In this document: in pieces, positions 21,645 to 27,123 of the stretch
Numbering within the stretch: position 1 is the first letter of the stretch
Layout of the letters: every line of letters begins with the position of its first letter
Origin: Halorussus aquaticus
GTDB taxonomy: Archaea; Halobacteriota; Halobacteria; Halobacteriales; Haladaptataceae
Reading direction: 5' to 3'
Assembly: GCF_024218795.1 (NCBI RefSeq)
Contig: NZ_CP100400.1
Location: 3,410,001-3,474,000 of the forward strand
DNA length: 64,000 nt
Notes under the pieces: generated by a model
Databases searched by the model: none
What the model was told of the DNA's origin: nothing
Seen by the model: the letters and a program-made list of their open reading frames with translations, nothing else
Made by a program: the position numbers and the translations under genes

Positions 21645-22111
21645 GGCGAAATCCAAGCTGAGCCTTCTCTCTCCGACATCGCCCGGCGGGCCGACGAGGC
21701 GGTCGACGCTCCGCTCTCGGGGGAGTCGTGTCTCGCCGACTCGTAGCAGGTGATTGAACTGCGGACCCAACGTGGCCTCGACGGGCACGTTGATACGTGG
21801 GGACAGCGAGGGGAATCCGGTCGCGGAGCAGTGCCGTTCATCGTCGAGGACGATACGGGGCGTGTCCTCGTCGAACCGGATAACGCGAAGTTCTGCCTCG
21901 CCGAGGAGTGGATTCAGGACCTCGACAGTATCCCGGACGACCCCGCACCCCGACGCTTCGTGACCTCGCAGACCAGATTCTCGGCACGGAGACGCACGGG
22001 AAACGGTACTACGAGTCCCGACTGAACGACGGCGATACCGTCACCGTACGGGGACGCGCCGATACTGACGCTCGAAGAACAGGACGGCGTCGTTGTGCCC
22101 GCCGAGTGTGA
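21645..22111 (+). pseudogene. Decayed GIDE-type (membrane E3-ligase-like) gene
   Basis: Frame 3 reads DAPLSGESCLADS, then an in-frame TAG at 21744-21746, then VIELRTQRGLDG and GRGAVPFIVEDDTGRVLVEP, which match the haloarchaeal GIDE-domain pattern (APFSGEECL-Y-EYEV, DDTGRVLVDP). Near 21960 the homology continues in frame 2 as HGKRYYESRLNDGDTVTVRG. A nonsense change and a frameshift therefore break the gene, and no start or membrane helices remain. The 5' limit is approximate. The family call comes from remembered motif similarity. Confidence 0.55.
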
Positions 22112-22415
22112 GTGCCCGGCAGACGTCCAACACGGGCCGGACTGCAAGCACAAGATCGCGCTCGCTACCGTGGGCGGCCTGGTCGTCTTCAAAGCGTCCG
22201 TGAACTTCCTGACGCCGAGTGGGAATCACGAGCGGTCGAACGCATTGACGCTTTCGGATAAACACCGGCCAGACGGCGGTACTGTTGCAGAGGATATTGT
22301 TGAGGATTCTCTCAGCCTTGATGTAGATGACTATAAGGAGTGTGACTGTGACGATCTATCCGACGATTTTCCTTGTGCCGACTGCTACATCGAAGGACGA
22401 AAAGATCTTCCGTAG
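22026..22415 (+). pseudogene. SWIM zinc-finger protein, C-terminal part
   Basis: The open frame contains a SWIM-like zinc motif, CECPADVQHGPDCKHKIA (C-x-C-xn-C-x-H). It ends with a second cysteine group, ECDCDDLSDDFPCADCYIEGRKDLP, which I recognise as the usual tail of haloarchaeal SWIM proteins. The N-terminal half is missing; the only start is a GTG at 22095 inside the domain. The base composition shifts from GC-rich to AT-rich within this gene, so it marks the island's left boundary. It could still be expressed as a short protein. Confidence 0.55.
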
Positions 22416-22432
22416 GTGGACGAATAGCCAAG

Positions 22433-22464
22433 TTTATCAGAGCAACAAGCCACGATTTTATCAG
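22433..22464 (+). promoter_or_regulatory. Direct repeat TTTATCAG before the restriction-modification operon
   Basis: TTTATCAG occurs at 22433-22440 and 22457-22464, 24 bases apart, just upstream of the first methyltransferase (ATG 22491). Either copy could be the TATA element. The pair could also be a binding site controlling the operon, as many restriction systems need. Confidence 0.35.
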
Positions 22465-22490
22465 CACGACCAAAGGCAAACACCATATAT

Positions 22491-23624
22491 ATGACACAAA
22501 AAGAATCTGAACTCCGTCAGTATGACTGGACGTTCCAAGGAGCAAATTCAAGAGAAGGCGTTCACTCTATCCATCCTTACCCTGCCAAGTTTATCCCGCA
22601 GATACCCCATCAGTTAATAGAAATATATGCTGACTCCAAATCAGATGTTGTCTTCGACCCGTTTTGTGGCTCAGGAACTGCTTTAGTGGAGGCTATGAAG
22701 AAGGGGCATTCCTCTATTGGAGTAGACGTACACCCACTCGCTTGCCTTATTAGTCGGGTCAAGACACGGCCACTGCCAGATGACTTTGGTAATCGTGCAC
22801 GTGAAATTATCACGAGTGTCCGGAACAGATACCCTGGCGACGTTGAGCCTCCAGACCTCCCAAATATCGACCATTGGTTCAAGAAACCGATTCAGCAGGC
22901 TCTAACGCTCATAATTGACGAACTAGAGCAGGTCGAAAATCAGCCTACCAAGGAGGCGCTTCAGGTTGCACTCTCTAGTATAATTGTTAGGGTATCGAAT
23001 CAAGACAGTAACACCCGATATGCCGCTGTAGAGAAGGACGTTACTGCAGAAGACGTTCTACAGAAGTTCTCACAAGCGTCCTCAAAGATCGAATCCGCAT
23101 TCAAGAAAAATTCAGAATGGCGACGAAATAGTGCCACTTGTGACGTTCTCAACGAGAATATATTAGAAGTAGAACCCTCAGATATTCCCCAGAAGGTCGA
23201 TTTGGTCATCACCTCACCGCCATATCCGAACGCATACGAATACTGGCTGTATCACAAATATCGGATGTATTGGCTTGGTCTGGCCGACCCTACCGAAGTG
23301 AAAGAAAACGAGATCGGTGCTCGGCCCCACTATCAAGGTAGCAACCCACGGGACGAAACTGACTTCGAGGAGCGGATGGTGTCTCTGTTCGACCTACTCA
23401 GAGATATTACCACGGAAGATGCTACAGCCAGTTTCGTTGTTGGACGTTCCGTGATTCAGGGGGAAGAAGTAGATAATGGTAAACTCCTAGAGCGCGCCGC
23501 TGATGCAGCCGGCTTCTATACGGCTGACTCCGCTTCCAGAAGTATCCCGTCTAACACTAAGAGTTTCAACCCGGGATACTCGAAAATAAAGGACGAGAAA
23601 ATACTCACCTTCAAGAAACTATAA
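22491..23624 (+). CDS. DNA methyltransferase M1 of a restriction-modification system
   Basis: 377 residues. A SAM-dependent N4-cytosine or N6-adenine DNA methyltransferase. The motif IHPYPAKFIP (about 27-36) precedes the SAM motif I, DPFCGSGT, at 56-63. The catalytic motif IV, TSPPY, is at 241-245, in the order I then IV. Codon use is AT-richer than the genome, a sign of transfer. The next gene starts two bases after its stop. With the second methyltransferase and the nuclease it forms a three-gene operon. It presumably modifies one strand of the recognition site. Confidence 0.88.
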   Translation: MTQKESELRQYDWTFQGANSREGVHSIHPYPAKFIPQIPHQLIEIYADSKSDVVFDPFCGSGTALVEAMKKGHSSIGVDVHPLACLISRVKTRPLPDDFGNRAREIITSVRNRYPGDVEPPDLPNIDHWFKKPIQQALTLIIDELEQVENQPTKEALQVALSSIIVRVSNQDSNTRYAAVEKDVTAEDVLQKFSQASSKIESAFKKNSEWRRNSATCDVLNENILEVEPSDIPQKVDLVITSPPYPNAYEYWLYHKYRMYWLGLADPTEVKENEIGARPHYQGSNPRDETDFEERMVSLFDLLRDITTEDATASFVVGRSVIQGEEVDNGKLLERAADAAGFYTADSASRSIPSNTKSFNPGYSKIKDEKILTFKKL

Positions 23625-23626
23625 AG

Positions 23627-25246
23627 ATGAAACTTCGATTCCACTGGTTTGACTACGATCATTTCCCCTACGAAGCAGAGTTCGCTAAAGCCGAATTAGA
23701 TACGCTGTTTAATGGCATCGAGGTTGTCGAAGACACTGAAGATGCACTAACAGTAGAGGTCTCTAATACGGAAAATTGGGCGAAGAAGGCTGTTGAGACC
23801 ACCTACTTCCAATACGTGGAGTCTGAAGATGAAGTTGTGGTTACGAACCAAGCAAAATTGGAGGTTGCAGAAGATTCTTCCTCCATTGAGTCTTCTGACC
23901 ATTCTCTGTCTAACTATCGGTTAGGCCGCCAACAGACGCGTTACTCTTCTCACGGAATACACGAGTATAGAGGGAAATTCAACCCACAAGTCGTTCGGTC
24001 GATCGGGAATAGATTCGGGCTGGAATGCGGAGATTGGTTACTCGACCCGTTCTCTGGAAGTGGGACGGCTCTCGTTGAAGCAAAGCACCGTGGTTGGAAC
24101 GCTGTTGGAATCGAGATTAACCCTCTAGCAGTTAAGATTGCTAACGCAAAGGTAGATTCCCTAGAGGTCCCAGAAGATAGACTTAATGAGGAAATGAAGT
24201 CGGTTATCGAAGATTTGCGCCGTCAATTTCAGGATTATACCCTGTATTCTCCTTTCCCAGAAGAAAATATTGAATCATTAGCCGGGAAGGGGTGGAAAGA
24301 GGATATTCAGGGCATCGATTATCTCGAAAGTTGGTTCGTTGACTCGGTACTCGTCCAAATTCACGCGATTCAGCGACGCTTGTTGTCGGTTAGTTCCGAT
24401 AAAACACAAGAGGTGCTGGAAATCCTCTTAAGCGATGAACTGCGCGATGCGTCGCTACAAGATTCTGGTGACCTTCGCACTCGGAAAATGGATGATAAAC
24501 CTGCTAACTATCCTTTAGTCACAAAATTCATCGAACGTATAGAGGAATTCCTCCAAACTGTCCTCCGTAGCCGTACCGCCATCACCGGTAACGGTGGGAA
24601 CCAATTCGCGCTAGAGTCGGATTCTAGAGACTTCGCAAATGAGGTGTTGAGCCACCCTAGCCTCCCAAAAGATACGAAATTCGATGGCGCACTCACTAGC
24701 CCACCATATGCTTCTGCTCTACCGTATGTAGATACGTACAGATTGAGTATGTATCTCTTCGGCTTAATTAAGACTGGAGAGATGCGTGAGAAATCGAGAT
24801 CGCTAATCGGCTCGCGTAATATTAAGGAAACCACGAGACGGGAGATTTACGATTCGATTGAAACAAATGAACACCATCTACCAAAAGGGTGTATCTCTAC
24901 CTGCCGAAATCTGAAGGAAGCCGTAGATTCCGAGTCCGACGGGTTCCGCCGTCAGAATAGGCCTGCTCTCGTTTATCAATATCTGGTAGATATGAAGCAA
25001 TCCTTCAAAGAAACATATGGCGTATTAAAGGATAAGGCTCCATATGGGCTGATTGTTGGTCGTAATACTACTGAATTGGGTGGAGAAGAGTATGTAATCG
25101 ATAACCCGGAACTTCTTGCAGAACTTGGCGAACAAGTTGGCTACAAAGTTGATGAGCGGGTTGAGATGGATACCCATCGTAGATATAGCATGCACAATAG
25201 TAATAACTCAATTGACACAGAACAGTTATTGGTGTTAGTGAAATAG
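23627..25246 (+). CDS. DNA methyltransferase M2 of a restriction-modification system
   Basis: 539 residues, a distant relative of M1 with the same layout. An N-terminal extension of about 105 residues is unassigned. IHEYRGKFNPQ follows, then motif I DPFSGSGT at 140-147 and motif IV TSPPY at 357-361. The region between them, about 200 residues, probably contains the target-recognition part. Like M1 it could methylate N4-cytosine or N6-adenine. Two methyltransferases beside one nuclease suggest an asymmetric target in which each strand needs its own enzyme. Composition is AT-rich like the rest of the island. Confidence 0.88.
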   Translation: MKLRFHWFDYDHFPYEAEFAKAELDTLFNGIEVVEDTEDALTVEVSNTENWAKKAVETTYFQYVESEDEVVVTNQAKLEVAEDSSSIESSDHSLSNYRLGRQQTRYSSHGIHEYRGKFNPQVVRSIGNRFGLECGDWLLDPFSGSGTALVEAKHRGWNAVGIEINPLAVKIANAKVDSLEVPEDRLNEEMKSVIEDLRRQFQDYTLYSPFPEENIESLAGKGWKEDIQGIDYLESWFVDSVLVQIHAIQRRLLSVSSDKTQEVLEILLSDELRDASLQDSGDLRTRKMDDKPANYPLVTKFIERIEEFLQTVLRSRTAITGNGGNQFALESDSRDFANEVLSHPSLPKDTKFDGALTSPPYASALPYVDTYRLSMYLFGLIKTGEMREKSRSLIGSRNIKETTRREIYDSIETNEHHLPKGCISTCRNLKEAVDSESDGFRRQNRPALVYQYLVDMKQSFKETYGVLKDKAPYGLIVGRNTTELGGEEYVIDNPELLAELGEQVGYKVDERVEMDTHRRYSMHNSNNSIDTEQLLVLVK

Positions 25247-25254
25247 CCTATTAC

Positions 25255-26415
25255 ATGGATGTCTCACCGATTCGTCAGGTCGTTACCGAAGATATCGAAG
25301 GCGATCGATTTGGCGATGTACTGAAAGAGCGTCTGGAAGATGATCGATATTCACAATTCTATTTCGCAATCGCGTTTTTGAGAAGGTCTGGGTTTGACTA
25401 CTTGGGAGAATCGCTATCTGAATTTCTCAATCAGGGCGGGGAGTTATTCGGGGTCGCAGGTGTCGACAATAAGGTGACTACAAGAGAAGCCCTCGAACAA
25501 CTGAGTGCGATGGCCACGCAATCGACTATTTATAATACTAGTTCGGATTTCATCTTCCACCCAAAATTCTATATGTTGGAGGGTGATGACGAAGCGGCTC
25601 TAATAATTGGAAGCGGTAATCTGACTAGAGATGGTCTGTTCCGCAACGTAGAATTTGGAACGATAATAGAATTCAACCTCTCTGACGAAAATGAAGTCGA
25701 GAAATTTGCGGAGTACAAGTCATTCCTTGAGACTCTGCTTGATGATGCTCACCCAAACGTTCAGCCCATCAGCGAGAATCTCCTGGACTTACTGGAGGAA
25801 AGCGGAACTCTGGTAACCGAAGACGAAGCCGTCGGAGGAGAGGCTTCAACACGTGGTTCAGGAGACCCTTCTGAGAATGGTGTGTCGGAAGAAGTGCGTG
25901 AATTATTCCCAACTCAAGAGACACCTAGCCTCCCGACTACATCACGAGTTTCTGCGGATGAGCGCGAAACTAGTGGCACGACAACCAGTACTTCCCCGGA
26001 AGAGTGGGACACTTTCGTTCTTCAATTGTCTCCATTTGATTCCAGCCACCAGCCAGGCACTCCTGGGACACCGGAAGTCCTGATTCCGATGGACGCCGTC
26101 GACTTTTTCCCAGAGATCACTGAAGGGCCTCACAAACATCCTGACGTGTATTTTGATGGTGAACTGGAAACTGCTGGAGGGAGTGAAAATGTGAATTATC
26201 GGTTCTGGTATTACGATGACAGACGTGAATGGAGATTGAATGTCAGGGAAGCAACGATGGAACAAGTGAGTCCAAGGGGAGGTTCGATTCTCGTCATCTC
26301 AAAAACGGATTCTTCATTCCGAGTTAGAGTAGTGAATCAGGGGGATGGAGACTTCCAACGGTTCCGCGATGCATGTACAGAAGAGGTTGGGGAGAAAGTA
26401 TGGGGGTTTATTTAA
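25255..26415 (+). CDS. Phospholipase-D-fold restriction endonuclease, BfiI/NgoFVII-like
   Basis: 386 residues. The N-terminal PLD-type nuclease domain (about 1-180) has one active-site set: His102, Lys104, Asn122 and Glu133 (FHPKFYMLEG, GSGNLTRDGLFRNVEFG). The intervals 2, 18 and 11 equal those I remember for BfiI (His105, Lys107, Asn125, Glu136), a metal-independent nuclease. A Ser/Thr/Glu linker (about 190-255) leads to a C-terminal domain with GTPEVLIPMDAVDFFPEI, like the DNA-binding domain of NgoFVII-type enzymes. It begins 8 bases after M2. Cleavage probably needs a dimer, since each chain has a single motif. Confidence 0.85.
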   Translation: MDVSPIRQVVTEDIEGDRFGDVLKERLEDDRYSQFYFAIAFLRRSGFDYLGESLSEFLNQGGELFGVAGVDNKVTTREALEQLSAMATQSTIYNTSSDFIFHPKFYMLEGDDEAALIIGSGNLTRDGLFRNVEFGTIIEFNLSDENEVEKFAEYKSFLETLLDDAHPNVQPISENLLDLLEESGTLVTEDEAVGGEASTRGSGDPSENGVSEEVRELFPTQETPSLPTTSRVSADERETSGTTTSTSPEEWDTFVLQLSPFDSSHQPGTPGTPEVLIPMDAVDFFPEITEGPHKHPDVYFDGELETAGGSENVNYRFWYYDDRREWRLNVREATMEQVSPRGGSILVISKTDSSFRVRVVNQGDGDFQRFRDACTEEVGEKVWGFI

Positions 26416-27052
26416 CAAGTTAATTCCTTGTTCAACTGGGGTGGACTAGTTCATCAAGGCGCTGGAAGGTGACCGGCAGACGTTGGATACTAAAGACGGA
26501 ATTTCAGAGCGCAAGAAATCCACGTTGGTGTCCCCTGTGGACACCAGCGGGCGGGGCTTACGTAAATCGACATGTCGAAGTGATAGATTGGCGTAAGGAG
26601 TGGAATACGACGAGAACGCGCCCGCAATCTCACGGCGCGGTGCTGTTCTCCACGTCTGGAATCAGGAATATCCGATATACCCGTCAAATCTACAAAATTT
26701 TTGAAGCGGACTAACGATTCTCAATGGCCCGCGCGTTCGTCTCATGTCGCAACCTCCTACCTTCCACAGCGCGGGCGTTCTCGCGGGTTGACGCGTCATG
26801 TACGGAGTAGATAGCCGTTCCAATGCCAAGGGAGAGGTAATGGTGCGCCGGATACTTGGCGTTCCTGCGAACGCATGTCATATTTTGAAACCGCATGGCT
26901 GCGTGGGGTGGCTTCCGCGACGGGTGTAATTCATAGCGCGGAAGTACCGGCAAAACAGGCTGTTTGACGGGTAGGATACTCGGTCGAAAACGCCGCAAAA
27001 GTTATGATAGAGCGACGCTGTACCGCCATTTAGGTCAACTGCTCCGCAGGAA
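26416..27052. other. Unassigned spacer between the restriction island and tRNA-Thr
   Basis: 637 bases with no firm gene. Plus strand 26450 onward reads FIKALEGDRQTLDTKDGI directly after an in-frame TAG (26447-26449), as if a gene end had been cut by a nonsense change. A hairpin (arms 26526-26533 and 26539-26546) follows. On the minus strand 26711-26998 encodes a possible 95-residue protein (containing YPAHHYLSLGIGTAIYSVHDAS) that I cannot place. Composition drifts back from AT-rich to GC-rich here, consistent with a decayed integration boundary. Confidence 0.4.
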
Positions 27053-27123
27053 GCCTAGGCCGGGATTTGAACCCGGGCTCTCGTCCTTACCAAGGACGCG
27101 CTTTACCTCTAAGCTACCCAGGC
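27053..27123 (-). tRNA. tRNA-Thr (anticodon GGT)
   Basis: 71-base cloverleaf on the minus strand. The acceptor GCCTGGG pairs with CCTAGGC (one G-U). D stem GCTT/AAGC; anticodon stem CGTCC/GGACG with loop TTGGTAA, so the anticodon is GGT for ACC codons; T stem CCGGG/CCCGG with TTCAAAT. CCA is not encoded. Its 3' end faces the restriction island, a common place for integration, but I see no second copy of that end. Confidence 0.95.

Follow-up and report, generated by a model that had tools for sequence, protein, structure and literature searches.

A probable restriction-modification system of the BfiI kind on an inserted island of the haloarchaeon Halorussus aquaticus

A stretch of 64,000 nucleotides of Halorussus aquaticus DNA (termed here the window) contains three open reading frames in tandem, in the order M1-M2-R. 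Two of them encode DNA methyltransferases and the third a nuclease of the PLD superfamily. The locus raises the question of whether these genes constitute a complete restriction-modification system, and if so, of which kind. All three frames are intact, as seen in the ORF list and translations. M1 and M2 are separated by 2 bases and M2 and R by 8 bases; the ORF coordinates thus bear out the tight three-gene operon proposed in an initial, sequence-only reading. Chance is excluded as the origin of this arrangement because full-length homologues of all three proteins recur in the same gene set elsewhere. With high probability, the operon is a type II restriction-modification system that is complete and of the BfiI kind. 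The features of the locus are listed in Table 1.

Table 1. Position of the M1-M2-R genes, their motifs and domains, and the surrounding island in the window.
Feature	Coordinates	Strand	Basis
M1, DNA methyltransferase, 377 aa, predicted N4-cytosine	22491..23624	+	Pfam, PADLOC, alignment
M1 motif I DPFCGSGT, residues 56-63	22656..22679	+	Translation, alignment
M1 motif IV TSPPY, residues 241-245	23211..23225	+	Translation, alignment
M2, DNA methyltransferase, 539 aa, predicted N4-cytosine	23627..25246	+	PADLOC, alignment, predicted fold
M2 motif I DPFSGSGT, residues 140-147	24044..24067	+	Translation, alignment
M2 motif IV TSPPY, residues 357-361	24695..24709	+	Translation, alignment
R, PLD-superfamily restriction endonuclease, 386 aa	25255..26415	+	BfiI 2c1l sequence and model match
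R catalytic PLD domain, about residues 16-182	25300..25800	+	Alignments
R H102 (BfiI H105)	25558-25560	+	Alignments
R K104 (BfiI K107)	25564-25566	+	Alignments
R N122 (BfiI N125)	25618-25620	+	Alignments
R E133 (BfiI E136)	25651-25653	+	Alignments
R predicted B3-like DNA-recognition domain, about residues 252-386	26008..26412	+	Foldseek
Inserted island with operon	21659..27050	.	blastn against congener G013; low GC
tRNA-Thr(GGT), 3' end at island boundary	27052..27123	-	ARAGORN

BfiI has two methylases that act on opposite strands (PMC4267653) and a PLD nuclease with a B3 domain (PMC4267653, PMC4081073). The window operon resembles BfiI/BmrI in having two methyltransferases together with an R protein that joins a PLD catalytic domain to a predicted B3-like recognition domain. 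All three genes are homologous to those of BfiI-type loci. The tandem M1-M2-R order is shared with BfiI-type operons found on plasmids of Methylobacterium indicum and Roseibium aggregatum. Of their nucleases, that of Methylobacterium is a genuine orthologue of BfiI (match to 2c1l, E 3.5e-145), and that of Roseibium can be aligned to the Methylobacterium protein over its full length. Compared with these plasmid operons, M1 is 43-44% and M2 38-40% identical, both over their full lengths.

At the level of the methyltransferases, M1 matches Pfam N6_N4_Mtase with 61.7 bits and, over its full length, the PADLOC MTase_II profile PDLC03364 (E 3.9e-113). M2 matches the MTase_II profile PDLC03377 over residues 1-539 (E 1.7e-100), and its predicted model (pLDDT 88.5) displays the fold of a class I methyltransferase and has motif I first. 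The earlier claim that both enzymes carry DPFxGSGT followed by TSPPY is correct, since both motifs are located in M1 and in M2. Motif IV of the form TSPPY suggests methylation at N4 of cytosine, which would be the reaction carried out by M1 and M2. Assignment to the beta-class amino-methyltransferases, which have motif IV before motif I, is rejected as the order in M1 and M2 is the opposite. The sequence-only reading had pointed out this departure from the beta class, and that part stands; it had also taken the order as a sign of novelty, and that part does not. Motif I before motif IV is normal for this family, because all aligned BfiI-type relatives have the same order and the M2 model is also motif I first.

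The nuclease displays the PLD-superfamily active site (HxK, N, E). His102, Lys104, Asn122 and Glu133, singled out at the outset from the translation, are near-invariant in an alignment of 27 homologues, and they correspond to the BfiI residues given in Table 1. A K107A change inactivates BfiI (PMC10388346). Among solved structures, the best sequence match of R is BfiI (2c1l, E 1.5e-7, R residues 36-143 on BfiI 39-146) and the second is SauUSI. The active-site residues of R are spaced at intervals of 2/18/11. These intervals had been read as those of BfiI; they are indeed present in R, but are not specific for BfiI. They are also found in SauUSI, in an ungapped alignment with R, and in 15 of 17 Rhizobium-type enzymes. 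The spacing is therefore rejected as proof of BfiI kinship and, on the sequences compared, marks the PLD group and not BfiI. BfiI is singled out instead by the match of the C-terminal B3 domain and by the homology of the methyltransferase pair, and on these two grounds the proposed relation to BfiI is supported.

Evidence on the fold of R comes from a model predicted from the alignment of 27 homologues, which include BfiI-type sequences; no templates were used and the pLDDT is 86.1. BfiI 2c1l is the best PDB fold match (Foldseek, E 5.7e-19) and the match extends over both domains. Both domains of R are thus predicted to fold like those of BfiI. A restriction-type counterpart was also found for the C-terminal domain: the BfiI recognition domain with DNA, 3zi5, is its best match (Foldseek, E 3e-8, TM 0.65 on target) and the UbaLAI B3 domain, 5o63, is next (E 9.5e-6). 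R.NgoAVII (4rct) and Nuc are also among the fold matches of the model. Over the whole chain the R model and 2c1l superpose poorly (global TM 0.32-0.34, rmsd 20), which most likely reflects a different orientation of the two domains in the model. By sequence, the C-terminal domain shows non-significant similarity to BfiI in a search with the window-lineage profile (domain i-Evalue 17). Sequence proof of B3 homology is therefore rejected, and the claim that the C-terminal part of R folds like the BfiI B3-type recognition domain is a prediction that rests on structure. The match of R to the Pfam RE_NgoFVII profile (E 0.017) is weak and, like that to PLDc_2, under the cut-off, and it was not used for classification. 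R was also considered as DrmC of DISARM and rejected, with 21.3 bits against a curated NCBIfam cut-off of 133; the insert has no DISARM genes.

R is not a BfiI orthologue. It belongs to a separate clade of the R tree (97.6/97), with 22-27% identity to BfiI types. It differs further from these in its recognition loops, as well as in the C-terminus, which is longer in BfiI-type R, and the present host, unlike that of BfiI, is a haloarchaeon. The nearest relatives of R are from two metagenome-assembled bacterial genomes, of a Thermoflexia (L047) and of bacterium DBS1-2 (L052). They are 38.5% and 35% identical to R, form one clade with it, and are encoded in the same tandem three-gene order. These two systems are uncharacterised, and their methyltransferases form no clade with those of the window. 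The window system appears to belong to the BfiI kind as a divergent member whose architecture and homology are well supported.

Two other known types of PLD nuclease offer different readings of R. The PLD-B3 R proteins of CglI and NgoAVII need a DEAD-family N protein, and R might likewise work with an NTP-driven partner, given the same PLD-B3 architecture, the fold match with R.NgoAVII and the weak RE_NgoFVII match. This is very improbable, as the ORF list of the 5.4-kb insert includes neither a helicase nor an ATPase gene and the DEAD-family ATPase partner of CglI and NgoAVII is thus absent. CglI and NgoAVII also have one methyltransferase, not two (PMC4267653), and BfiI is a far stronger fold match than NgoAVII. 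It is just as hard to credit that R is a modification-dependent (type IV) nuclease that happens to adjoin an unrelated methyltransferase pair. The PLD domain of R does match that of SauUSI by sequence and fold, and L002, which scores highest among the haloarchaeal PLD relatives of R, differs in its C-terminus and is not accompanied by a methyltransferase within the 3.7 kb read. SauUSI is a helicase fusion that is modification-dependent and has no methyltransferases. Against this reading, the C-terminal domain of R is predicted to resemble the BfiI B3 domain, and the two nearest R homologues, those of L047 and L052, stand in tandem behind the same M1-M2 pair. The L002 nuclease (L002:1195-2250), whose first part is similar to that of R (30%, E 6.8e-21), is perhaps itself modification-dependent.

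A third reading is compatible with gene identity of the BfiI kind. The imported system may now be silent as restriction, or the methyltransferases alone may work. The insert is without an integrase, and gene remnants at its left end suggest decay around the operon. Yet the three frames are intact, and the catalytic residues and tight spacing are kept, which leaves this reading with a small though not negligible probability.

How the operon came to its present location can be read from related genomes. The operon DNA has 46-51% GC compared with 59-74% in the rest of the window. In the congener G013, the flanks at 21658 and 27051 abut (blastn), and positions 21659-27050 are therefore an insert of 5.4 kb. 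Low GC and absence from the congener together support the suggestion of AT-rich imported DNA. The DNA that flanks the insert has 83% identity with a plasmid from Halorussus. The insert ends at the 3' end of the tRNA-Thr gene. No recognised integrase is found in the island, and no att repeats of at least 14 bases mark its ends. At the left end (21750-22415) are apparent gene remnants, namely a piece of a GIDE domain that scores below threshold and a short SWIM zinc finger ORF. The sister species G014 has a different island of about 16 kb at the same tRNA-Thr; it encodes a tyrosine recombinase and includes a 34-bp repeat of the tRNA end. From this second island, the tRNA-Thr site is an integration hotspot. 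The genes of the G014 island (L145:1316-17602) look like those for sugar uptake and glycosidase.

The gene set is widely distributed. When genomes, one for each species, were scanned with the M2 alignment, 80 loci were found, both bacterial and archaeal. M1 is present in 77 of these and a PLD nuclease in 68; M1, M2 and the PLD nuclease all appear as separate calls in 65. The same three gene kinds are thus found together in most loci, contrary to the suggestion that the exact assembly may be new. In some other M2-found loci (L098, L101, L102, L105, L119 and L125), a single frame of 911-986 aa encodes M1 and M2 as a fusion; in L101, L102 and L125 it is followed by a PLD nuclease in convergent orientation. 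An archaeal BfiI-type gene set is not unique to this host, because Methanoregula (L079, L080) and Methanomicrobiales (L089) examples exist. The C-terminal domain of the window lineage, among 392 Halobacteria genomes, is found in the host only. The main texts of two archaeal restriction surveys make no mention of BfiI or PLD enzymes. More distant two-methyltransferase pairs, with no recognised PLD nuclease, occur in haloarchaea L037, L038 and L039; in L038 and L039 another conserved ORF adjoins the pair. A scan of viral contigs with R gave no match. On one viral-collection contig (L151:3823-7861), M1-M2 is accompanied by a convergent gene for a BfiI-type R. BfiI-type gene sets may travel on viruses or proviruses.

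Phylogenetic trees of the nucleases and methyltransferases differ. The R tree has at least five lineages: BfiI, Rhizobium-type, two further groups, and the small lineage of the window, L047 and L052, within which identity is 35-41%. The methyltransferase tree does not track these lineages, except for the Rhizobium type, whose methyltransferases are one clade. Placement of the window's own M1 and M2 is poorly resolved. Mesorhizobium L071 and Methylobacterium are 61% identical in M1 and 58% in M2, but 22% in R. Likewise, L053 and L092 share 60% and 59% in the methyltransferases and 25% in R, and the values for L047 (window type) against L048 (BfiI type) are 61% in M1, 47% in M2 and 23% in R. L053/L092 and L056/L074 are sisters in the methyltransferase tree (99.9/100 and 100/100, respectively). 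Gene orientation is tandem in most BfiI types and in the window type, and convergent in Rhizobium and other types. Closely related methyltransferase pairs carry R proteins of at least five lineages, which is most simply explained if the nucleases beside such pairs have been swapped for one another. A more speculative proposal, which is possible but rather doubtful, is that one conserved methyltransferase pair with a conserved asymmetric target has been repeatedly joined with PLD-B3 nucleases of different lineages; R of the window would then read the BfiI target or a close variant via a differently built B3 surface.

The BfiI-kind reading suggests how the system might work. M1 and M2 would share the protection of a short asymmetric target, with one strand for each enzyme. 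R, a PLD-superfamily nuclease domain fused to a B3-like recognition domain, would dimerise by analogy with BfiI, such that the HxK motifs of two subunits form one metal-independent active site. The B3 domains would bind unmethylated copies of the target, and the single active site would cut first one strand and then the other, a few bases downstream. Type IIS cutting near an unmethylated asymmetric site is thus the most likely activity, and its role would presumably be defence.

The target of BfiI and BmrI is ACTGGG. This sequence is offered as a first guess for the present system, because its methyltransferases are kin to those of BfiI, although R has recognition loops unlike those of BfiI types. 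In 400 kb of host DNA, ACTGGG is seen 167 times with 168 expected (0.99), a count that is uninformative for a recent import, as lack of avoidance is then expected whatever the target. A separate observation concerns GAGCCC/GGGCTC, which is strongly under-represented in 400-kb samples from the host G000 (16 seen, 86 expected; L155-L174) and from the sister G014 (7 seen, 85 expected; L175-L194). This avoidance is shared by both species.

Neither the three-gene assembly nor the motif order is new. Less ordinary are an R from a small, barely sampled lineage and the apparent nuclease exchange. Few metal-independent restriction enzymes have been characterised, and the present system would extend that set to a haloarchaeal and probably salt-tolerant enzyme. 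The BfiI gene set is widespread in bacteria and present in metagenome-assembled genomes of methanogens, with nuclease lineages that apparently have been exchanged. Two questions can now be tested: how a restriction enzyme is replaced without a fatal mismatch to its methyltransferases, and whether one site can be read by B3 loops that differ in build.
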